64,000 bases of DNA from the NCBI GenBank assembly GCA_947178125.1, contig CAMWXB010000012.1, forward strand, positions 1 through 64,000, read 5' to 3'. The DNA is from an uncultured Lachnospiraceae bacterium. GTDB taxonomy: Bacteria; Bacillota; Clostridia; Lachnospirales; Lachnospiraceae. Within the stretch, counting starts at the first letter, position 1; each line of letters opens with the position of its first letter. Below are positions 2,012 to 35,674 of the stretch, in pieces. The position numbers and the translations under genes are program-made. The notes below the pieces were generated by a model. It searched no databases, was not told the DNA's origin, and saw only the letters and a program-made list of their open reading frames with translations.

Positions 2012-3109
2012 TTAATTCCCGTCGCTTGCACGGCGTTTGATTTCAGCTTTCATGTTTTCATTCCATGGTGCCAGGAGTTCTAACTCTTCATCGCTCATCC
2101 TATCATTTGGAAGTTTTTCAAGTAGATAAGTCAGATAGTGATAGACGTTTACTCCATTTGCTTTTGCCATTTCTACCATCGTGTATACGATAGCGCTGGC
2201 CTGAGCTCCATTAGGAGTGTCACAAAACAGCCAGTTTTTGCGGCCAACTGTAAATGGTCGGATGGCGTTTTCGCTGAGATTGTTGGAAAAACTGCACCGT
2301 CCGTCTTCCAGATAGGTTGTAAGATAGGAATGACGGTTCCGGATGTACGTCACGGCCTTATCCATTCTGGCTCCTCGGACAGGTGACTGATTATCAAGCC
2401 ACGACAAAAAGCCTTCCACTATCGGCTTTTCTTTCTCATGACGGGCCTTTTTGATAGCATCGAAGGAAGTGTACCTTGCCTTGATCACATCTTCCAGATG
2501 GAAGAGCTGGTCGATATACATGATACCCTGAAGGCTGGGCGTAATCCAGTTCCTTCCCTTTGGGAATGGCATCTGTCAGGTATCTCCTGATATGTGCCCA
2601 GCAGGCTGTCCGTTTTGCGTCAGGGACTTTGTTGTATCCGCTGTAGCCATCGCAAATCCTCTTTCCAGAAGTTTCCAGTGAAAGTACTCATACACCTTCA
2701 GTTTTGCCGGGATAAAAACCAGCTCGCGGCATACAAACTTTTCCCCGATCTCTTCCAATGCAGTATTGCAAACTGGACAGACTTTCTCCCCGTCATCAAA
2801 ATCCAGATATTTCTTCTGGACAGGGATTCCTTTGAAACGTTCAGCATCTGTAGTTCGGGCTTTCCGTTTCTTTCCTGTTTTATCTGGAAGAGACACCTCC
2901 AATTCTTCTGCCTTGGCTGCAGCCGGGTCCTGTTCCATTTCTGCCTCATTGAAAAGGTTCAGCTGGCCTGGGATATCAAGAGTACGTTTCTCGCTGGAAG
3001 AGCCAAAGAGTTTTTTACGCAGAAGAGCCACTTCGTCTTTCAGGTTGTCCCGTTCCTGTGTCAGGGCTTCTTCCCGTTTATTGGCAGCATCGACAGTTGC
3101 CTGAATCAT
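2012..3109 (-). pseudogene. IS66 transposase TnpC, frameshifted with an internal deletion
   Basis: The N-terminal piece (3109-2576) has a coiled region, the KKLFGSSSEKR segment and a zinc-binding VCPVCNTAL motif. The C-terminal piece (2572-2012) has NLSENAIRPF and GRKNWLFCDT, the standard IS66 transposase end. Around 2560-2660 a different frame encodes CDGYSGYNKVPD, so at least two frameshifts are present. The region that normally carries the first catalytic aspartates, roughly 140 residues, is absent between the zinc motif and CDGYSGYN. The gene is therefore dead. Confidence 0.85.
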
Positions 3110-3174
3110 TTCAGGTGAGAATGCGGAGCATTCTCAGAATCGTCGCTACCGAGCGACGATTTTTTATGCTGAAA

Positions 3175-3513
3175 TCATGAGGTTTTGATAGCCTTTGGCT
3201 GTTCAATATCAATGCCGGACATCAGCCAGTCAAACTCACGCCATGTGAGGTTCCGGACTTCTGACTTGTTCCTGGGCCATCTGTAAGAACCCTGTACTGT
3301 CAGTCTTTTGTAGATCATAACGATACCATCGGGCTCTTTTAAGATTGCTTTGATGCGATCACATTTACGCCCGCAAAAAAGATAGAGTGCATGGTCGATC
3401 TCCATGGAAAACTGATCCTGAAGAATCGCACACAGTCCATCAATAGATTTGCGCATATCTGTCCTGCCGCAGACGATATAGATGGCATCAACATTTGAGA
3501 TATCCGCTAACAT
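3175..3513 (-). CDS. tnpB: IS66 TnpB (Orf2-like) accessory protein
   Basis: A 112-residue protein of the usual length for IS66 TnpB. It has the N-terminal VDAIYIVCGRTDMRKSIDGL segment, FCGRKCDRIKAI in the middle and LTWREFDWLMSG near the end. It appears uninterrupted, and its start overlaps the end of tnpA by 7 bp, as in intact IS66 operons. In IS66 elements TnpB is required for transposition but its biochemical role is unclear. Because tnpC here is broken, the gene is probably a remnant without function unless it serves another copy in trans. Confidence 0.85.
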   Translation of the reverse strand: MLADISNVDAIYIVCGRTDMRKSIDGLCAILQDQFSMEIDHALYLFCGRKCDRIKAILKEPDGIVMIYKRLTVQGSYRWPRNKSEVRNLTWREFDWLMSGIDIEQPKAIKTS

Positions 3514-3782
3514 AACGGCTCCTTCAGTGCATCCATCAAAACTTTCAGGAGAGCCGGCTGAATGGTATTACTCATGCGTATCAGCAGTCCTTTCGCTTCG
3601 ATTTCGATCGTATGTGAATTGTCAAGGCGCATAGAACTGTTTCTTCCATTCGGGATCAGTTCTGCCGGAGAAATCCCGTGTTCATTACACCACGCCGCAT
3701 CCGTCAATCCACTCTGTCTGCACTCGGTTACCAGTTCCATCCATTCATCCAGAGAGCGCCCTGGAGCACGTTTGTTGTTCAT
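3507..3782 (-). CDS. IS66 TnpA accessory protein, altered C-terminal half
   Basis: A 91-residue protein. The first 38 residues (SLDEW, CRQSGLT, WCNEHGIS) match IS66 TnpA. After that the sequence does not show the expected FYYW-type helix seen in the copy at 125-310, so an early frameshift or recombination is possible. The last part, SNTIQPALLKVLMDALKE, again looks like the TnpA end. A TTTGGAGGT-type ribosome site lies just upstream. The segment 3611-3630 is repeated inverted at 1989-2008. The gap 3783-3885 holds IS-flanking sequence and a short palindrome (ATAGACA/TGTCTAT at 3870-3885), otherwise nothing recognised. Confidence 0.65.
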   Translation of the reverse strand: MNNKRAPGRSLDEWMELVTECRQSGLTDAAWCNEHGISPAELIPNGRNSSMRLDNSHTIEIEAKGLLIRMSNTIQPALLKVLMDALKEPLC

Positions 3783-3885: not shown

Positions 3886-4755
3886 CTACCCAAGAATTGA
3901 GTGCTTACCCTCTTCATCCATTTCTTTCCATGTTTCATATCCTATACCTTCCCAAGGCATTCCCCGATCAAAAGAATACTTCCACGGATATACCTGTTTT
4001 CCGGTTTCCTTATCCCTAATTCTATCCGTACTGCCTATATCCTTAGCCGGATTTCCTACGACCACCCTCTCTGGCAATACATTCCTAGTCACTACTGCAC
4101 CAGCGCCTACCAATGACTCTTTACCAATTACCATACCCGGCAGTATGACCGTACCTGTAGCAATAACTGCAAATTCCTCAACTGTCACACCAAACAAATT
4201 CTCAGACGGCGGATTAGGATCATTCGTTAAAACAACATATGGAAATATCCAGACATAATCTTTTATCGTGCTTTTATGACCAATATGCACATTACTGTGC
4301 ATATTCACATAATTTCCAATCTCACAGTGACCTTGTATATCAGATAATGTGCCAATTCTAACATGACTTCCTATTTGGCTATTTTCTCTGATAGTAACTC
4401 TATGGCCGGTTTGGAAATAATCTCCTATTATACTATCGCCATAAATAATAGTATCGCTTCTGATAACAGAATTATCACCTATGCTCAGCATATGAGGAGC
4501 AATCTCTCTTTTCACTGTAAAATCAGCCAAATACTCTCCTAATATAGCCCTGGCACCTATAAATGAATTTATGCCGATTGTAACATTATCACGAATTATG
4601 ACATTAAAATCAATATAAGTTCCATCACTGATATCAACATTATCACCAATGATGCTTCCTGCTCGAATTACAGTATTTTCACCAATCTTAACATTTTTAC
4701 CTATTATAACATTCTCGTCAATCAATGCGCTCTTTGCTATTATATTCTTATTCAT
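3886..4755 (-). CDS. Left-handed beta-helix (hexapeptide) acyltransferase
   Basis: A 289-residue protein made almost wholly of hexapeptide repeats (for example VIIGKNVKIGENTVI and IGDNVDI). A second block near the end (VILPGMVIGKESLVGAGAVV) closes with VVVGNPAKDIG, the typical finish of sugar O- or N-acetyltransferases. It probably transfers an acyl group from acyl-CoA to an amino sugar nucleotide in the cytoplasm. I start it at the ATG at 4755, one base after the upstream stop, behind GGGAGGTGG. A longer in-frame start exists at 4791 but lies inside the upstream gene. This is the last gene of its operon. Its translation seems to depend on the G9 element at 4757-4848. The precise acyl group and sugar are unknown. 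Confidence 0.85.
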   Translation of the reverse strand: MNKNIIAKSALIDENVIIGKNVKIGENTVIRAGSIIGDNVDISDGTYIDFNVIIRDNVTIGINSFIGARAILGEYLADFTVKREIAPHMLSIGDNSVIRSDTIIYGDSIIGDYFQTGHRVTIRENSQIGSHVRIGTLSDIQGHCEIGNYVNMHSNVHIGHKSTIKDYVWIFPYVVLTNDPNPPSENLFGVTVEEFAVIATGTVILPGMVIGKESLVGAGAVVTRNVLPERVVVGNPAKDIGSTDRIRDKETGKQVYPWKYSFDRGMPWEGIGYETWKEMDEEGKHSILG

Positions 4756-4756
4756 T

Positions 4757-4848
4757 TCAAGCCACCTCCCTATTGCAAGTTTCCATTTCAAATTGCAATA
4801 AACTTATTGGTGGTCTTAAAATATAAACGCTACTTTTTACCCCCCCCC
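4757..4848 (-). promoter_or_regulatory. Phase-variable translational-coupling element, copy 1
   Basis: Read on the minus strand: G9 at 4848-4840, then TAAAAAG, a short coding tail, and an inverted repeat just before the next gene. The arms are 4809-4813/4762-4766 (CCACC/GGTGG) and 4793-4800/4771-4778 (TATTGCAA/TTGCAATA). The inner side of the repeat carries the ribosome site GGGAGGTGG for the ATG at 4755. With G9 the upstream frame runs through the hairpin and stops at TGA, one base before that ATG. With G8 it stops at once (TAA), and with G10 after three codons (TAG), both upstream of the hairpin. The element is a 92-bp near copy of 5988-6079, about 76 of 92 positions alike by my count. Confidence 0.7.
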
Positions 4849-5986
4849 GGACATTCTTTTCAGGCTCATCCACATCTCTGACAATCCGCGCTGGGACTCC
4901 CATAACAACTTTATTATCCGGTATATTCTTAGTAACCAGTGCACTCGCCCCAACAATGACATTCTCGCCAATATTTACACCGGGAAGAATATTGGCCGCC
5001 GCTCCTATAGTAACCCGATCGCCAATCGTCGCTCCCATCACATGGTCTTCATTATATTCTTCCCTTCCCATTGTATTATCATTTGTTGTTGCAACCAACA
5101 CACTAATGAATACATCATTTCCAATAACCATGTTCCCGGTAATATGGGAATTATCCATTATTTTAGTATTATTTCCAATCCGGGTATTATAATTGACACT
5201 TACATTTCTGCTTATTATACAATTATTTCCAATGCAGCACTCTTCTCGAATAGAGCAAAAATCACCCAAAAGGTTATTATTACCTATTTGTGTCCCTGTA
5301 TATAATACTACTCCTGGACAAAGCACACAATTCTCTCCAATAACAAGTGGCTCATATATCGATTTCAATTCTCTTGAAGTATTTCCTGGAGAAGTTGGTA
5401 GTTTGCCTAACACGCAATGATCATATATTTCTGTTCCTTTTTTAATAACGGTATGCGGATATATTACAACATAATCATGAATGATTACTCCCGCTTCAAT
5501 TTCAACATCCTCGTGAATGACTGCTGACTTCGATATGAACGCTTCAGCACTGACTTTATTGTTTTTACTCTTTCCTACACTGCCTTCGGCTGCCTTAACA
5601 ACCGCAAATCCATCCACTACAACTTCGTTATTTTGATTATAAACCTTTGTATCAAGCTTAAGAATTCGTTTCTTTTCATTCAATACTTCAACGATTTCAA
5701 CCGCTGCTCTAACCGTATCTCCTATAAACACAGGTTTAACATACTTGGAATCCTGTTCCATATAAATTGTTCCAGGCCCTGGCAATTTCATTCCAATTAC
5801 ACCTGAAATCAATCCACTAACTAATGCTCCATGTACAATCCTCTTTCCTGCAAAACTCTTCTCAGCTTCTAACCCATCGATATGAACCGGATTCATATCT
5901 CCTGTAATTCCTGCAAATAAATATACGTCACTTTCCGATATTGTTTTAGAAAATTCTGCTTTTATTCCAATCTGATCCCTATTCAT
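4757..5986 (-). CDS. MaoC-like hydratase fused to hexapeptide acyltransferase
   Basis: A 409-residue fusion. Residues 1-130 form a MaoC/hot-dog (R)-specific enoyl-CoA hydratase domain, with catalytic D and H in GDMNPVHID and the GKRIVHGAL segment. From about 150 a left-handed beta-helix acyltransferase follows, ending VVMGVPARIVRD. The obvious reading is that one polypeptide makes a 3-hydroxyacyl-CoA (such as 3-hydroxybutyryl) and passes it to an amino sugar. That is inference. The last 28 or so residues after NVRGG are encoded only because the G tract at 4840-4848 is nine long; with eight G the protein ends at that point. It stops one base before the next ATG. The gene starts at 5986 behind AGGAGGTGG, one base after the GNAT stop. 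Confidence 0.85.
   Translation of the reverse strand: MNRDQIGIKAEFSKTISESDVYLFAGITGDMNPVHIDGLEAEKSFAGKRIVHGALVSGLISGVIGMKLPGPGTIYMEQDSKYVKPVFIGDTVRAAVEIVEVLNEKKRILKLDTKVYNQNNEVVVDGFAVVKAAEGSVGKSKNNKVSAEAFISKSAVIHEDVEIEAGVIIHDYVVIYPHTVIKKGTEIYDHCVLGKLPTSPGNTSRELKSIYEPLVIGENCVLCPGVVLYTGTQIGNNNLLGDFCSIREECCIGNNCIISRNVSVNYNTRIGNNTKIMDNSHITGNMVIGNDVFISVLVATTNDNTMGREEYNEDHVMGATIGDRVTIGAAANILPGVNIGENVIVGASALVTKNIPDNKVVMGVPARIVRDVDEPEKNVRGGVKSSVYILRPPISLLQFEMETCNREVA
4840..4848 (-). repeat. G9 homopolymer tract (T1), open state
   Basis: Nine consecutive C on the plus strand, read as CGG GGG GGG GTA on the coding strand of the MaoC-acyltransferase gene. Nine keeps the C-terminal tail frame open. Eight gives an immediate TAA, and ten gives a TAG a few codons later. 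Confidence 0.9.
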
Positions 5987-5987
5987 T

Positions 5988-6079
5988 TTAAGCCACCTCC
6001 TTATTGCAAATTTCAGTTTTAAATTGCAATAAACCAGTCGGTGGTTTTAAAATATATAAATCACTTTTTACCCCCCCCC
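5988..6079 (-). promoter_or_regulatory. Phase-variable translational-coupling element, copy 2
   Basis: Same architecture as 4757-4848. G9 (6079-6071) is followed by TAAAAAGTGA. The inverted repeat has arms 6040-6044/5993-5997 (CCACC/GGTGG) and 6024-6032/6001-6009 (TTATTGCAA/TTGCAATAA), covering the AGGAGGTGG ribosome site of the MaoC fusion gene. G9 lets the GNAT frame run to TAA at 5990-5988, one base before the ATG at 5986. G8 stops at TAA right after the tract, and G10 at TGA three codons later. Both hairpin arms are kept between copies while loop bases differ, which supports a real RNA structure. Confidence 0.7.
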
Positions 6080-6611
6080 GGTTGACTTTAAAGTCTTTCC
6101 TTAACATACTATACCATTTCAACGATTTATATTCTCCTCTCAAAAATAAATGATTTCTAAATTCTCCCTCATAAATAAACCCACATTTTTCATATAAATG
6201 AATAGCTCTTTCATTATCAGAAAGTACATTTAAATAAACTCTTTCCAATCCAAATCTATCAAATGCCGCTTCTAAAATTTTCATTGTCGCCTTAGTACCA
6301 ACCCCCATTCCTTGGGCCTTACGCCGAAGGCTAATTGCATACTCGGCCTTTCTCGCCAACAAATCCACATCTTTTAAACTAATCGTTCCAAGATACTCAT
6401 CATTCTCATCTGCAATAGCATAATGTATACTTTTTCCCTCGATGGGCTCCGTTTCAGCTACTTTAATAAATCTTAATACATCCTCTCTTTTTACAGTTTC
6501 AATGGCAGATCGAAATCTTTTTTGTATTTCTGTGTCTTGCATCCATTCCAACATCCCTTTTGCATCTTTCTCTTCCAGTTTGCGTAAATACACAATCTGA
6601 TCTTTACTCAT
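5988..6611 (-). CDS. GNAT N-acetyltransferase (WecD/PseH-like)
   Basis: A 207-residue GNAT-fold protein. The acetyl-CoA-binding loop is visible as RRKAQGMGVGTKA, followed by NVLSDNERAIHLYEKCGF, the typical last strands of RimJ/RimL-like acetyltransferases. In this setting it probably acetylates a 4-amino-4,6-dideoxy sugar nucleotide, such as the product of the RffA-like aminotransferase at 9071-10201. The core protein ends near KDFKVNRGG; the last 26 or so residues (VKSDLYIL onward) exist only because the tract at 6071-6079 has nine G. This tail resembles that of the next gene rather than any GNAT sequence. It starts at 6611 behind AGGAGG and stops one base before the next ATG. The gap 6612-6733 holds nothing else. 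Confidence 0.85.
   Translation of the reverse strand: MSKDQIVYLRKLEEKDAKGMLEWMQDTEIQKRFRSAIETVKREDVLRFIKVAETEPIEGKSIHYAIADENDEYLGTISLKDVDLLARKAEYAISLRRKAQGMGVGTKATMKILEAAFDRFGLERVYLNVLSDNERAIHLYEKCGFIYEGEFRNHLFLRGEYKSLKWYSMLRKDFKVNRGGVKSDLYILKPPTGLLQFKTEICNKEVA
6071..6079 (-). repeat. G9 homopolymer tract (T2), open state
   Basis: Nine C on the plus strand, read CGG GGG GGG GTA in the GNAT gene. It is in the register that opens the C-terminal tail and couples translation to the next gene. Confidence 0.9.
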
Positions 6612-6733: not shown

Positions 6734-7790
6734 CTATATCGGAAATTTTCTTTTTAACCATATACCTATCGGTTTCTCTATCAACTCATGAAACAATATG
6801 GCTAAAGAAATACAAATAGCAAAAGATATACTTATCCTAAAAAAGTTAAAGTCCAGATTTAAGTGCTCTATTGCAAGATTCGTTAATCTCCATGTGAAAA
6901 ATTGTGCCAGAAAAAAAGAATATGATATTTTACTTAAATATATCAACCCTTTATTATTTTTTAACCTATGATAAGGCATATTAACCAGTGATAACATCAT
7001 CAAACAAAAGATAGGTAAGCCAAAAACACTATACATCATATAGTCATTCACTCTCCAGGAATAATTCACTCCTAACGATACACACACAACTAATACACAC
7101 AATTCTATCAAAAATGCCTTCCAGTTATATAATATATGCAAAAATTTAATCTCTGGAAAATCACTTTTATTTAACGAAGCCAAAATCACTCCAAGAAAAA
7201 ATTCCAACCCTCTAAAAGAAGGGTTACTATATATATTGGCCAATGAAAATCTTAATATAATTACTGGTGAATACAACAAGATGAATATACATAATCCCGC
7301 AATCAAAATTTTGCTCCTCATCTTTAATTGCTTAATTATCTCCTGTAAAAATGGATATATCAGATAACATATCAGCAAACACGAGACGAACCATGTTCCT
7401 CCATTATGCAAAAAACTGAATAAAGACGTATAAACCGATTGAATCCCCAAAAATTCTATTGGAAACAATAACAGATTATCGCATAAAGATTCCTTTCCGA
7501 ATAAAACAATGACCAAAGTTCCTACAATATAATATAAAGGTAAAATTCCAACTATCCGCTTCAAATAAAACTTTCTTAATTCTTTTAATGTTATTATTTG
7601 AGTCTGATCATATGTATAAAATAAAGAAAACCCCGATATCATAAAAAAAGCCGTCATAAATATTGCACCCATGCTAACGAACCGGTCCACCCCCCCAATT
7701 GCATTTAATATGCATTCTGGAATGAAACATAAAAATCACAAATGCCGATAAAACTCTGAATATATCTAAACCAGTTAATCTTTCTTTCAT
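6734..7790 (-). CDS. Acyltransferase-3 family membrane O-acyltransferase, phase-OFF
   Basis: A multi-pass membrane protein of the Acyltransferase-3 (OafA/WecH-like) family, which O-acetylates surface glycans from the cytoplasmic acetyl donor. From the ATG at 7790 the first 34 residues read MKERLTGLDIFRVLSAF and FMFHSRMHI, with the family's catalytic histidine, up to CNWG. A G7 tract (7690-7696) then shifts the frame to a TAG after seven codons. The downstream frame continues VDRFVSMGAIF and FMISGFSLFY through many hydrophobic segments to ELIEKPIGIWLKRKF, the usual end. G6 or G9 would join the two parts perfectly. In this sequence the gene is therefore off by one base. It is first in its operon, and its ribosome site is weak. 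Confidence 0.85.
7690..7696 (-). repeat. G7 homopolymer tract (T3), closed state
   Basis: Seven C on the plus strand inside the acyltransferase gene. Reading TGG GGG GGT leads to a stop. Six G gives CNWGVDRF and restores the full protein. Confidence 0.9.
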
Positions 7791-11720: not shown

Positions 11721-12017
11721 TTTTCTCCTTTCCGCATAAAACAGCCAGGTTTTCCACACACTATCAGCTTTCTACGAAATGGAATGTATGCCAAAAAAAC
11801 AACAAACGAACGAAAAATTGTTGTTAAAACATAAATTATAAATTCAACTGGAAATAATTTGAAAATAAATAGAATTTCAAGAATAGTATTAGGGATATAA
11901 TTTGAAAAGAATTTTAGGTACCCTTTTTTACCCCCCCCCTATATTTTTCATAGACACACCTGATTCAGCAACAAAAAACTTTGGAGCATACTTTACCGTT
12001 GGTATTGCTATTTGCAT
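11714..12017 (-). CDS. Phase-variable leader ORF (100 residues when open), closed here
   Basis: The ATG at 12017 has GGGAGGATAAAAG immediately upstream, a strong start. The first residues are MQIAIPTVKYAPKFF. In this sequence the G9 tract (11931-11939) leads directly into TAA, giving a 29-residue peptide ending NIGGG. With eight G, the frame continues KKGYLKFFSNYIP through hydrophobic segments (FPVEFIIYVLTTIF) to TAA at 11716-11714, 100 residues in all, overlapping the ATG of the next gene. With ten G it stops after six more codons. No family is recognised; the tail may be a small membrane protein or merely a coupling reader. The rest of 11721-12158 holds nothing else I can name. Confidence 0.6.
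11931..11939 (-). repeat. G9 homopolymer tract (T4), closed state
   Basis: Nine C on the plus strand, followed on the coding strand by TAAAAAA, the same context as tracts T1 and T2. Eight G would open the leader frame into the start of the membrane protein at 11720. Confidence 0.9.
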
Positions 12018-18368: not shown

Positions 18369-19491
18369 TTATAAATACATAATTATGTGTTTTTCTATGC
18401 TCTCTGCTATTAAACGATTTCCCTTCGTATCGCAATGAATATAATCATATATCATTTCCGGTTTATCTATAAAAAGATTAGACAAATCTATTAAGTATTC
18501 TTCGTTTACTATTTGTTCTTTAACATTATCATAAAATTTGAAAATACGTTGCTGCACATTTTCTTCAAAAAAAACTCTCGCAAATTTATCCGGATTTTTT
18601 CTTCTATCATAAAATGGAAATGGTTCCAATATTCCCAGAAAGGAGATATTAGAAACTTTACAAATACTTTGCATCATCCTCATATTCATAAACCAAATCG
18701 ACGATGGTTCTTCATCATTACGCAAACCGTACTCAATGGTTGTGCTTTCATCCTTTAACAAATACTTTACACTCTGCATCATGAAAGGGTGCCCATCCAT
18801 TATCCCAAGTCCAGTAGCATCATTAATACCAGAAAAAGAAATTACCAAATCAGGCTTTAGAACCACCACATCTCTAATCAACTTCATAAGTTCTTGAGAT
18901 GACGCATATCCCTGTATTCCGCCGGCCCAAATCTCCACGTTATATCCCTTGTCATATAGTATCATCTCTAACCATTCAGTCCAATTTCTAATCGTAGTAT
19001 TATATCCACAATCGCTCGTACTTCCGCCTAATACCACAATGCGCTTTACTGTTCCAGCATTTCGGCTATGTGTAAATATTTTGAATCCATTTACTTTTTG
19101 TCCATAATTTCTCGAATATCCAAAAAGATAATCTTTTATATCATTGATGCCTTCTCTATTTTCAACAAACTTATTAAAAACTGTAAAATCTGTTTCTTCA
19201 CTTAGTCCACAATTTAATAGTCCTTCTTTTATTTCCCTTATTATTCCACTTTGCCCGCTGCTAATAACAATAAAGTATGAACCTTTTTTCCACTTTTTTA
19301 TCTCTGAACTGAAGTAAACCTCATACCCTTGCTCATGCCCCCCCCCTGGCATCTATCCAACCATCAATCTTTTTCCCTTCACTTTGCAATAAATAATTTA
19401 TTCTTTTCCCCCAAATACCAATACCATAAATATATAATTTTTTCCCTTTACTTTTTTCAATAATCTCATGAATTTGTTCTTGAATTTTCAT
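18369..19491 (-). CDS. Rossmann-like domain + SGNH/GDSL hydrolase, phase-OFF
   Basis: From the ATG at 19491, which overlaps the upstream TGA by one base, the frame reads KLYIYGIGIWGKRIN and KIDGWIDARGG, then meets TGA after the G9 tract (19338-19346). With eight G it joins HEQGYEVYFSSEIKKW and continues. The result would be about 373 residues: an N-terminal Rossmann-like module (roughly 1-110) and an SGNH esterase domain with VVLGGSTSDCG near 130, FSGINDATG, and DYIHCDTKGN near the end. SGNH enzymes in glycan loci add or remove O-acyl groups; which one is unknown. In this sequence the gene is closed. An internal ATG at 19352 lacks a ribosome site. Confidence 0.8.
19338..19346 (-). repeat. G9 homopolymer tract (T5), closed state
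   Basis: Nine C on the plus strand, read GCC AGG GGG GGG GCA TGA. Eight G restores IDARGGHEQGYE across the Rossmann-like module. Confidence 0.9.
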
Positions 19492-20732: not shown

Positions 20733-21898
20733 CTATGCTTTCTGAATTGCCGGCTCAATTCCCTGAATGCTATTTTTTATTCCATTACAGAAATTACAGC
20801 CTTCAAGATAATCAACTTTTATATATTCTCGTAATTCTCGTTTTTTTTGATTGATATTTTCACATGTGATTTCTGACACATCAATACTATCATGCGAACA
20901 ACTATTGATTATCTGCAAATTATTCAGATGTGCCACATGTGCACAGCGATATATTCTCCCCTTTAATAACAACAAACCACGGGAAAAAGGGCAGTCTGTA
21001 AAGATTTCTTTTAAGCCTTCCCTTGTATAATTATGATTGTATATCTGTCCCATATCTGTCCATAATTCATCGTTAATAAAACAGGAAATCCCTCTCTCCC
21101 TGCACACCGCTTGTATTTCTTTTAACTTGATAGAATATTTGCCATAATTACTCAACCTTATTCTCGCTCCTGCATCTCTCATTGCAGATAATAATTTTTC
21201 ATTCGGCATAACACTTCCATTTGAAACTATTGTCAATCTTCCTATATGTTGCCGTTTATACCCCCCCATTCTATCAATTTGTACAGTTCCATATGAAGCA
21301 CTGGCTCTCCTCCTAAAATAATTAAGTCCGATATTTTATCGACTACTTTTAACACGTTTTCCAATACATTAATAATCTCTTGTATCTCATAATTTTTTGG
21401 TGCTTTATACTCCGGTATTAAATGAGAGCAGTCTCTACACCGCAATGTACATCTCTCAGTAATAAAAACCTCTAAACTAGGCATAAAAATATCCGTATTG
21501 TCATTAGTCGCATATATAGGATATTTTTCCAAAAAATCCGCTACTAACTCTCTCTCATTTTCATCATAAATAAAATCATCAACTTTTTTATCCTTAATCA
21601 AATTTGAACAACTATATATTTCTTTATACTGTATCTGTTCCATATACTGACATACACTATCAAATGAACGCGTTAAAACATTCAGAACCACAAATTCTTT
21701 ATTTTCACATAAAATAGAAGGCTCTTTTACAGGGCACCCGCAAAATTCAGAATATTTTCCACTTCTATCACAAAAAAATTCTACCGCTATTCCTACAGCT
21801 TGAAGACACTGATAAATAATCTTTCCACCAACTGTCGTTCCATATATAACAACTCTTGACCTTTCATGAACTTTCCAATCAAATTCTATAATCCGCAT
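20733..21898 (-). CDS. Rossmann-like domain + radical SAM/SPASM enzyme, phase-OFF paralogue
   Basis: The start at 21898 has AGGGAG upstream. The frame gives the Rossmann-like module (VVIYGTTVGGKIIYQ), CTLRCRDC and LIILGGEPVLH, then reaches a G7 tract (21261-21267). There it reads EWGGINGNI and stops at 21242. The remainder continues in another frame from GYKRQHIGRLTIVSNGS to EGCNFCNGIKNS at 20733. The intact paralogue at 19491 reads EWGYQQ at this point, so G5 or G8 would restore this gene. The current product would lack the second half of the radical SAM barrel and the SPASM clusters. Confidence 0.85.
21261..21267 (-). repeat. G7 homopolymer tract (T6), closed state
   Basis: Seven C on the plus strand within the second radical SAM gene. 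The aligned position in the tandem paralogue has five G (20017-20021). Eight G would give EWGGYKRQ and a full-length protein. Confidence 0.88.
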
Positions 21899-33325: not shown

Positions 33326-34518
33326 AAATTTAAGTATCCCTTTTTCTCCTGCTTCTTTTCAGGATTCTTGCTTTCCTCTGTTTTCTTCTTTAACTCCTCA
33401 ATTTCCTTTCTACACCTTTCCAGCTCCGACTCCGCATATTGCAAACGCCATATTTCATTTTGCATATCATTTATTTTTTCCTTCAGACACCGTTTTTCAT
33501 ATAATGAATATTCATATCCCGCCAAAATACACTGATTCCATCTGGTATAGTCTTTGTTTCTTTTTCTAAACATCTCTGTCGGAAAATATTCTGTCCAAGA
33601 TGCAGGAGAATTGGCCATTAATACTCGTTCCCAATTTTTTTTAAATTTCCATTCGCCTTTAAAAACATAATCATGTGCATTCTGAATATATAGCATACCA
33701 TCTGTACTTAATACTCTGTCAAATAAATCGAGATAATAATCTACATGCTCCTGCCCCATTTCTTCCATGCTTGCAATGTTGATACAGCAATCATATTTAT
33801 AATTATTTTTCTTTTCAAAATGCCATGAAGGAATTATATAAACATCATATTTATCAAGGTCAAACTCCTCGTCCAAATAATATAGTCCCACCTTTTTATT
33901 GGGAAGCATCTTTTCTAAATATTTATACGCGTATAGAAGCGATCCCGGTACAGCATCTATCATCACATATTTAACGCCCTCCGTAATATTCATCATCGCT
34001 TCAGCAATCCTGCCATACCCCCCCCCTAATTCTAATATGAGTTTATCTCCAACAGTACTTGATATTCTTTCAAGTCCTGCATAAATCATATTAATATCCG
34101 CTATTGTATCTAAATCTCTGGCTTTATAATCAAATTCTTCAAATCTATTCTCCTTGATAAAATCAAAAATACCAATTACATCAACATTATCTATAAAATT
34201 ATTCTTTGCCCCCATATCTTCCTTTGATAATTCCTGCATTCCCGTACAACCAATCCATGCATCCAGCATCTTCTCGGCAGAGTTATATTGTTCTGTCATG
34301 GATTGATCATATAAATCTGCAACAGAACTATCCGGTACTTCTAAAGCATCTACGTTTTCATCCTTTTCAACTAAATGCCAATGATTTAAAGGTGACAAAA
34401 AACTTGCATTATTCCGCATATCTTCAACTATCTTTTTCAATAATTCTCTATCTAAAGATATCTTCTCAAAATCTCCAGGTCTTCTGTTCGTAAACTGCTT
34501 ATTCACTACCTGCATCAT
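33313..34518 (-). CDS. Putative sugar O-methyltransferase with G9 tract in the SAM motif
   Basis: A 401-residue protein of the putative sugar O-methyltransferase type. The SAM-binding motif I reads LILELGGGYGRIAEAM near residue 170, and VMIDAVPGSLLYAY follows. The C-terminal 70 residues are charged and predicted coiled coil (EIWRLQYAESELERC, EEIEELKKK). The three glycines of motif I are encoded by nine consecutive G (34018-34026), in frame here. One base more or less leads to a stop within about a dozen codons. It starts behind AAGGAG and overlaps the end of the upstream radical SAM gene. Confidence 0.85.
   Translation of the reverse strand: MMQVVNKQFTNRRPGDFEKISLDRELLKKIVEDMRNNASFLSPLNHWHLVEKDENVDALEVPDSSVADLYDQSMTEQYNSAEKMLDAWIGCTGMQELSKEDMGAKNNFIDNVDVIGIFDFIKENRFEEFDYKARDLDTIADINMIYAGLERISSTVGDKLILELGGGYGRIAEAMMNITEGVKYVMIDAVPGSLLYAYKYLEKMLPNKKVGLYYLDEEFDLDKYDVYIIPSWHFEKKNNYKYDCCINIASMEEMGQEHVDYYLDLFDRVLSTDGMLYIQNAHDYVFKGEWKFKKNWERVLMANSPASWTEYFPTEMFRKRNKDYTRWNQCILAGYEYSLYEKRCLKEKINDMQNEIWRLQYAESELERCRKEIEELKKKTEESKNPEKKQEKKGYLNFWRK
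34018..34026 (-). repeat. G9 homopolymer tract (T7), open state
   Basis: Nine C on the plus strand encode GGG within motif I of the methyltransferase (TTA GGG GGG GGG TAT). G8 and G10 both give early stops. Confidence 0.85.
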
Positions 34519-35674
34519 TTTTTCTCCTTAGCTCTTCTAAAATATTATAATAATTGGATTCCCCAATGGTACAATTACGGCACTCTTTCTGCAATTTACC
34601 CTCAAGTAAATCTTTTCTTAACTGCCAATATCCCCTACTATTATAAATTTCTTCCGGGTTTTTATTATCTGGTATCTGATATCGCTCAAATAATTCATAC
34701 CAGTACTTTTTATCCATAAAACAACATGCAAATTCTAACTTTCCATTCATTCCATATGATAAATAGCCATTTGAAAGCTTTTCACAAAAACACCTCCGTT
34801 CTACCCCCCCCTGTTCATCTCTTTTATCTATTTTAGTTTCATGATAGAACATCTCATATATAGCCTGCGGCATATCCAAGCGAATACTGTATTCTGCGGC
34901 TAGTCTTTCTGTCTCCTCAAGAACTTTCTTTCCCATTAAGCGATCAACGTACTCAAGTGTAATTTTTCTTAATTCCGGTCTTTGATAATCTTCTATTACA
35001 ACCGGCTGACAGTATATAGAATCCCAATCTCCTCCTTCTGTTCGCACAACTTCTCCTACTGTTCTAACAATATTAGGTAAATCCATAAAATTTAACGTTG
35101 ACAACGTTGTCGATGTTCGAAATTTTAAATTTATATTGTATTTATTTCTAGCTTTTACCCATTTATGGATTGTATCCACAACATGTTCAAACTTTGCAGG
35201 TGTACGAATCGCTTCAAAAACCTCTTTGGTTCCTCCGTCCAATGAAAACCCCAATATATCAATATATTTTACTATTTCTTCATTTGCTGGCGGTATTGTC
35301 CCATTTGATAAAATTACAATTTCAGAATTTACATATTTTTTCTTTATATATTTACATATTTTAAAAATTTCTGGATTTAACAGGGTTTCTCCCATAAAAA
35401 AATTAAATTTCACATACTCCTGCCTTTTACCAGAAACTTTTTTATTAAATAGTATCTTCTTTACATCCTTTAATGTTGCAAAATACGGTTCCTTGTTAAA
35501 ATATGTTTTATTGCTATAATCTTTTGATATAAACGGACACATGGTACAATAAAGATTACATTTATTAGTCATATACATATTAATCTCTATAACCTTTATC
35601 TTTTTATTCCCTTCCATTCCCTCTTCACACTGTTTTATTAGCTGCTGCCTGTATTGTTCCATTAACTGTTCCAT
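34499..35674 (-). CDS. Radical SAM/SPASM protein with G8 tract
   Basis: A 391-residue protein. The radical SAM cluster CNLYCTMC is near residue 39, then KFNFFMGETLLNPE, which supplies the GE motif, and VILSNGT. The C-terminal SPASM-type cysteines are in RRCFCEKL, FACCFMD and CRNCTIGE. The G8 tract at 34804-34811 lies between the barrel and these clusters (GAA CAG GGG GGG GTA). It is open here; G7 gives an immediate TAG, and G9 stops seven codons later. A truncated product would keep the barrel but lose the auxiliary clusters. The start at 35674 overlaps the GT61 gene by 50 bases and has GAGGGATGAGGA just upstream. Confidence 0.85.
   Translation of the reverse strand: MEQLMEQYRQQLIKQCEEGMEGNKKIKVIEINMYMTNKCNLYCTMCPFISKDYSNKTYFNKEPYFATLKDVKKILFNKKVSGKRQEYVKFNFFMGETLLNPEIFKICKYIKKKYVNSEIVILSNGTIPPANEEIVKYIDILGFSLDGGTKEVFEAIRTPAKFEHVVDTIHKWVKARNKYNINLKFRTSTTLSTLNFMDLPNIVRTVGEVVRTEGGDWDSIYCQPVVIEDYQRPELRKITLEYVDRLMGKKVLEETERLAAEYSIRLDMPQAIYEMFYHETKIDKRDEQGGVERRCFCEKLSNGYLSYGMNGKLEFACCFMDKKYWYELFERYQIPDNKNPEEIYNSRGYWQLRKDLLEGKLQKECRNCTIGESNYYNILEELRRKNDAGSE
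34804..34811 (-). repeat. G8 homopolymer tract (T8), open state
   Basis: Eight C on the plus strand in the radical SAM gene. The register is open with eight; seven or nine close the frame almost at once. Confidence 0.85.

Follow-up and report, generated by a model that had tools for sequence, protein, structure and literature searches.

In translational coupling by a start-hiding hairpin, the ribosome that finishes the upstream open reading frame (ORF) opens or reaches the downstream start. The accessible portion of the GeneTack paper places phase variation and coupling in separate classes (PMC3711429). Among the nearest known systems is that of Helicobacter canadensis, in which, according to the accessible part of that report, eight genes carry homopolymeric tracts at their 3' ends and five of these genes belong to, or lie close to, a single gene cluster (PMC2823697). 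Here we consider a stretch of DNA (the window, 64,000 nt) from an uncultured Lachnospiraceae bacterium (GCA_947178125.1, contig CAMWXB010000012.1, positions 1-64,000), where a head-to-tail row of minus-strand genes, encoding a GNAT acetyltransferase, a MaoC plus hexapeptide acyltransferase and a hexapeptide acyltransferase, is joined by two 92-bp elements, each with a G tract and a predicted hairpin. Overall, we believe that each element is a phase-variable translational-coupling module and belongs to a real class of switch, a reading to which sequence and predicted folds lead us to assign a probability of about 0.8.

The two elements lie where the initial annotation had placed them, are identical at 76 of 92 positions and do, by Pfam assignment, link three acylation genes (Table 1). 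Both carry G9 followed by TAAAAAG, shortly past the domain of the upstream enzyme, and a tract of this length is long enough to slip. In the G9 frame, which is the coupling frame and the one assembled in both modules, the upstream ORF runs on for 30 residues through the hairpin and ends at a TGA or TAA one base 5' of the next ATG (4755, 5986), just as had been claimed. The further claim that G8 or G10 would stop the ribosome directly after the tract stands for G8, where TAA follows straight on; with G10 the stop codon (TAG in copy 1, TGA in copy 2) ends 10 nt past the tract. Because the tracts lie after the Pfam domains, the upstream domain is complete in every frame, as proposed, and the truncation of the tract-bearing gene in its off state that characterizes phase variation is not seen in the window.

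The hairpin over the downstream start is a prediction in both copies, and in both the predicted fold covers that start. The inverted repeat reported earlier does exist and extends further than had been stated. Pairing of UAUUUUAA(G)-CCACC with GGUGG-CUURAAAUG places the start codon within the stem, and the nested stem consists of UAUUUUAA with UURAAAUG, CCACC with GGUGG and an inner ATTGCAA/TTGCAAT. What has to be amended is the enclosure of the ribosome site in the second arm, since the Shine-Dalgarno sequence (SD) is itself only about 60% paired, its GGAGG overlapping the stem edge. Unpaired probabilities in the two window copies are 0.14 and 0.08 for the start codon and 0.41 and 0.39 for the SD, and the parts that are locked in these predicted folds are the spacer and the start codon, not the SD itself. 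Folds of 106 nt that include the ATG reach -27.2 and -22.8 kcal/mol (z -3.1 and -1.9), whereas the 92-nt elements without the ATG fold more weakly (z -1.7 and -1.5, with 13 of 200 shuffles equally good). When the tail codons were permuted and the start region held fixed, the cost of opening the start region was 14.0 kcal/mol in module 1 against 6.2 in the shuffles (p 0.005), and 11.7 against 5.7 in module 2 (p 0.010).

Comparison of the two copies bears out the earlier remark that arms are kept and loops vary. They differ at 3 of 48 paired versus 13 of 35 unpaired positions (Fisher p 5.9e-4, with paired positions taken from the fold of copy 1), and the changed sense codons comprise nine nonsynonymous and one synonymous, in addition to TGA/TAA at the stop. 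Since paired positions are spared while nine of the ten changed sense codons are nonsynonymous, it appears to be the RNA that is kept between copies and not the tail peptide; these changes, and tails that differ across modules, give no indication that the alternative C-termini are functional protein sequence.

In the mechanism we propose, slippage would gain or lose a base in the G tract at the end of the upstream ORF and so set the frame. In the coupling frame, the ribosome would translate the tail of about 30 codons, melt the start-hiding hairpin and stop at the next start, and the next gene would then be made by reinitiation or by fresh initiation at the strong SD. In the other two frames the ribosome would leave within a few codons, the hairpin would remain closed and the next gene would be off, the upstream enzyme retaining its whole domain throughout. 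With the two modules in series, production of gene 3 would require that gene 2 be translated, and there would therefore be three nested states: 1, 1+2 and 1+2+3. The target would be the acylation of glycans, within a surface-polysaccharide cluster that holds many G tracts. The steps on which sequence can speak are the frames, the stops, the predicted hairpins, their recurrence elsewhere and the lack of any sign of peptide constraint between copies, and at every one of them the phase-variable coupling proposed initially is supported.

The exact element is a local one. Of 200 family genomes, none but the window's own contained a tract followed by TAAAAAGTRR, and species genomes scanned more strictly for the exact window element yielded nothing. 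It is the design that recurs, with differing arms and tails, and not the sequence. BLAST of the window region against 77 genomes matched six, the window's own among them. In genome G246 (loci L008/L093) a GNAT homologue has its own G tract, other arms (CTATGCCA/TGGCATAG), another tail and a stop immediately 5' of the next ATG; in G253 (L012) the GNAT homologue is tract-free and, read by eye, ends just past its domain. The matches in L009 and L011 are to the body of the hexapeptide gene. Those in L010 and L013, short and tract-free in the parts read, were set aside, as was L004, a fourth G9TAAAAA in the window's genome, where the tract lies a few bases 5' of an ATG with no long ORF entering it.

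Within the genus, patterns of G8 followed by GGAGG and ATG were searched for twice. There were 90 matches in 27 genomes and 121 in 37, a single tract often matching several times, whereas the reversed pattern matched 21 and 17 times; the places G268:C11, G268:C27, G060:C57, G257:C65, G270:C5:21646, G271:C54 and G273:C11 were left out. The genus set, which takes in loci of the window's own genome, comprises 157 loci with 150 distinct tracts; in 14 rows an ORF of at least 110 codons enters the tract and a gene start lies behind it. A frame ends -1 to +10 from that start in 11 of the 14 rows; one (window 34018) is inside a gene. Opening energy at these 11 sites is above that of 104 ordinary starts (p 1.2e-4) and of 27 operon starts (p 1.4e-5), with only two of the 11 beating base shuffles. 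The extended SD GGAGGTG, complementary to the end of 16S RNA, is present in 7 of 11 genus modules versus 4 of 64 other GGAGG genes (p 4.4e-5). The same genus also has long G tracts of another kind, directly 5' of TATAAT-like boxes (TAGAATGG, TAAAATG), for example in L052, L053, L075, L077, L078, L081, L087 and L095; these resemble promoters and could have a spacer of phase-variable length.

A wider search of species genomes, with the pattern G8-N45..75-GGAGGTGGC-N1..7-ATG, gave at least 118 stretches, and 50 of the 123 sites in them have a frame within 12 nt of the start, GC-rich chance matches included. A single rule was applied to loci L044-L281 and the window, with duplicates dropped: a tract of at least 8, upstream and downstream ORFs of at least 100 codons each, and GGAGG plus ATG 35-110 nt past the tract. 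In records below 50% GC, a frame ends between -2 and +11 of the ATG at 30 of the 34 eligible sites (the actual range being -1 to +10), where spacer shuffles of the 30 give a mean of 0.297 per site (binomial p 1.9e-12). Three of the four misses (L075, L076 and L131) are promoter-type in look and the fourth (L248) chance-like. Further copies in related genomes had been set beforehand as part of a test of the switch, and these 30 modules provide them.

In 25 of the 30 modules, neither of the other two frames reads further than 30 nt past the tract before it stops, and the summed distance of these two stops over the 30 modules averages 30 nt versus 60 in codon shuffles (Fisher combined p 1e-7). 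The start region costs more to open than in codon shuffles (combined p 8e-14), and folds are more stable than their shuffles (combined p 1e-13; 17 of 30 singly). Tract lengths run from G8 to G11. The assembled length gives the coupling frame in 19 modules and a non-coupling frame in 11, so that on and off lengths are both found across different loci, not within one strain; a simple frame constraint would predict 30 in the coupling frame and no constraint about 10.

Both sides of the junction were scanned with Pfam for 27 pairs, and the hits are largely glycan or sugar-nucleotide enzymes: cytidylyltransferases, formyltransferases, hexapeptide and GNAT acyltransferases, FdtA, FrhB-type proteins and glycosyltransferases. 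A Pfam family is common to both sides in 12 of these pairs, namely L047, L140, L166, L171, L178, L195, L233, L266 and the FdtA pair of L263, together with L240, which is under the cut-off on both sides, and L206 and window module 1, which share a single domain only. The L200 and L213 pairs gave no Pfam hit. In L205 the window's order of GNAT followed by hexapeptide plus MaoC is found again with the domains swapped, and L225 (Lachnospiraceae strain 526-35) has two junctions around a hexapeptide-MaoC gene, the first at a contig edge.

The same pattern is present in viral contigs, in 13 stretches, 10 of which have coupling-frame junctions as judged by frame. Rows of small genes with at least two such junctions are found in L282, L287, L294, whose contig is as long as that of L200, and L213. 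BLASTP finds clear relatedness within the row in L282 (best E 3e-9) and in L255, which has one junction of this kind (1e-26), and weak relatedness in L213 (E 3e-4); row genes have a short N-terminus alone in common in L287 and short stretches in L295, and BLASTP shows no match among the row genes of L200. PHROG matches are to tail, tail-fibre and adsorption families and support a putative tail role for L291 and, weakly, for L287, while L255 has a sub-threshold receptor-binding match and some phage rows, read by eye, stand before lysis genes. No sister phage contigs with differing tract length were found. A wide hairpin scan of viral contigs (at least 120 stretches) was discarded as mostly chance, since four junctions pass in 121 loci and one of them is L295 itself. 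In that locus, which belongs to Lactobacillus crispatus phage vB_Lcr_AB1 (MW476490.1 40959-42490), a row of four small genes, all hypothetical, is linked by three junctions that resemble these hairpin junctions. A C8 run is present in one of the three, and the third alone passes the script rule.

A leader-ORF form is seen in Limosilactobacillus portuensis (L236), where two short leader ORFs on the reverse strand contain G11 (1135-1145) and G12 (4536-4547). Each leader is followed by a predicted hairpin and then by a gene with a DNA N6-methylase domain, one of the two genes also having a specificity domain, and neither leader is in the coupling frame as assembled. From its sequence, L236 is possibly a phasevarion with leader-type coupling. 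Because the leader ORF upstream has no enzyme to vary, the downstream gene is likely to be the target of the device.

A number of results weigh against this account. Taken by themselves, the two window copies do not stop significantly early versus codon shuffles (p 0.135 and 0.190), the evidence for early stops being set-wide, and even in the set such stops reach p<0.05 individually in just 7 of 30 modules. Opening energy does so singly in 15 of 30, so the hairpin is not universal, and in some modules it is undemonstrable (p 0.90 in L166, p 0.97 in L213). When base shuffles take in just 60 nt of upstream sequence, and the outer stem is thereby cut, neither window copy reaches significance (0.205 each). 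SD pairing alone, tried as a discriminating feature on the 11 genus sites, equals background (p 0.67). The combined p values assume an independence that is only partly true, some modules being copies of others. In addition, 19 of the 30 modules come from the scan that fixed GGAGGTGGC, which built in the SD and the tail end EVA for most of them; the 11 genus modules are free of this bias. One frame fuses the two genes into one ORF in L055 and L085, with no early stop, and two frames couple in L197 and at the first L263 site. In records of 50% GC or more, 13 of 30 sites pass the same rule, and stop-start overlap is frequent in ordinary operons. Finally, the nearest hint of length variation within a strain is a set of three near-identical elements with G8, G9 and G9 on one Treponema contig.

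Operon overlaps and GC-richer matches of this sort are what one might expect if tight operon genes with G runs, or assembly artefacts, had produced the pattern by chance. We nonetheless find such an origin very hard to credit, given 30 of 34 sites against a null of 0.297 per site, early stops and locked starts that beat codon shuffles, and recurrence in other genomes and viral contigs. No more credible is a phase-variable promoter in which the tract would set the spacing before the -10 box of the downstream gene. Many other G tracts of the genus do directly precede TATAAT-like boxes, and TATAA directly follows the tract in three modules (L140, L205 and L225), but it is absent there in the other 27, and no minus-strand promoter-like site lies at either window tract, the region holding 8 such sites versus 7.2 expected. 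Long G runs are slippery for polymerases, and a programmed slip at the tract, by either the ribosome or RNA polymerase, could yield a fixed product ratio with DNA length unchanged. A ratio device would be expected to keep its length and frame, so a range of G8 to G11 that covers all three frames, with 11 of the 30 modules outside the coupling frame as assembled, speaks against this option, and we think it improbable.

The remaining alternatives give the tail a role as protein. If the tail changed the activity, stability or location of the upstream enzyme and the adjacent start were incidental, the locus would be a case of C-terminal phase variation, as described in part of the H. canadensis report for gene-end tracts that alter only the C-terminus (PMC2823697), and a tail is indeed added in the coupling frame, some 20 to 37 residues long when measured from the tract. 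Such a role sits poorly with tails that are unrelated by eye between modules, with window copies that keep hairpin arms amid nonsynonymous change, with the short leader that is the whole upstream ORF in L236, and with the tract-free GNAT homologue of L012; we regard it as unlikely. Somewhat more room must be left for both effects at once, with the tail disabling or destabilising the upstream enzyme as the downstream one comes on, so that related pairs are exchanged and not added. The sharing of a Pfam family across 12 of 27 scanned junctions and the Ala at the end of many tails would suit an exchange, but the EVA tail end was built into the second search pattern, and tail ends vary in the genus set, which is free of that pattern; we hold this combination to be a minority possibility. 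The phase-variable coupling module remains the reading we prefer.

Table 1. Coordinates of the three acylation genes and the parts of the two modules in the window
Feature	Position	Strand	Basis
Gene 1, GNAT acetyltransferase core, ends at tract onset	6081..6611	-	Pfam PF13302/PF00583
G9 tract of module 2	6071..6079	-	sequence
Module 2 (G tract, 30-residue tail, hairpin, SD), gene 1 to gene 2	5988..6079	-	alignment, fold, codon shuffles
Module 2 predicted hairpin; CCACC 6040-6044 with GGTGG 5993-5997; outer stem extends to ATG	5984..6054	-	fold; p 0.010 versus codon shuffles
SD of gene 2, GGAGG, extended form AGGAGGTG	5996..6000	-	sequence
Gene 2, MaoC-like domain plus hexapeptide acyltransferase, 409 aa including tail	4757..5986	-	ORF; PF01575, PF00132
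G9 tract of module 1	4840..4848	-	sequence
Module 1 (G tract, 30-residue tail, hairpin, SD), gene 2 to gene 3	4757..4848	-	alignment, fold, codon shuffles
Module 1 predicted hairpin; CCACC 4809-4813 with GGTGG 4762-4766; outer stem extends to ATG	4753..4823	-	fold; p 0.005 versus codon shuffles
SD of gene 3, GGAGG	4765..4769	-	sequence
Gene 3, hexapeptide acyltransferase, 289 aa from ATG 4755	3886..4755	-	PF00132 (scanned from earlier TTG start)

The nearest NCBIfam model to gene 1 is PseH (TIGR03585), at 74.2 bits under a cut-off of 93.1, and gene 3 is NeuD/PglB/VioB-like, at 112.6 bits under a cut-off of 160.8. The window as a whole has an excess of G8, with 11 matches versus 1.3 expected, and 0 of 100 shuffles attain 11. 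Six more G7-G9 tracts lie on the minus strand within ORFs (7690-7696, 11931-11939, 19338-19346, 21261-21267, 34018-34026 and 34804-34811). As assembled, long frames are broken at 7690, 19338 and 21261, the tracts at 34018 and 34804 are in frame, and the tract at 11931 opens a short frame only, whatever its length; these six look like conventional phase-variable genes. Adjoining the glycan cluster, at 562-1992 and 2012-3782, are what we take, naming them by eye, to be integrase-like fragments and IS66-type transposase genes.

The arrangement would matter for how phase variation is sought. Known phase-variable genes are usually sought by a tract inside the gene; here the switched gene would be the next one, which carries no tract and would therefore be missed by scans for tracts within genes, and where a G tract adjoins an annotated gene end, that end may in fact be a regulatory element. 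If the reading is true, the module is a compact, testable RNA switch that would give gut bacteria, and some phages, a means of altering their surface glycans or tail-end proteins stepwise along a gene row. We lean slightly, at little better than even odds, towards a general new device: serial cassettes of a G tract, two early stops, a start-hiding hairpin and an extended SD, in which slippage would decide how far along a gene row translation goes, used for rows of glycan enzymes, for DNA methylases by way of a leader ORF, and for phage rows of small, partly related tail-end genes.

The initial annotation knew of no described switch of this form, and we found no description of one in the open-access literature searched, most subscription papers lying outside it. 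Like hairpin-based translational coupling, the module would have the ribosome that ends the upstream ORF open or reach the next start; unlike the module, such coupling is not tied to a hypermutable tract. With conventional poly-G phase variation in Campylobacter and Neisseria, as far as the accessible accounts go, it shares G-tract slippage and an association, often, with surface-structure genes, but there it is the tract-holding gene itself that is switched. A further possible parallel is lex2A/lex2B. The nearest known systems are the C-terminal phase variation of H. canadensis and hpuAB of Neisseria meningitidis. H. canadensis likewise has tracts at gene ends, and one frame there can merge two genes; the effect proposed in the accessible part of that report is an altered C-terminus or a fusion, and that part mentions no hairpin, coupled start or switching of the next gene (PMC2823697). 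In hpuAB, according to the accessible part of its description, the tract controls a unit that includes the first gene (PMC4514712), whereas in the window the domain of the first gene is complete whatever the frame, and the hairpin stands at the gene end.
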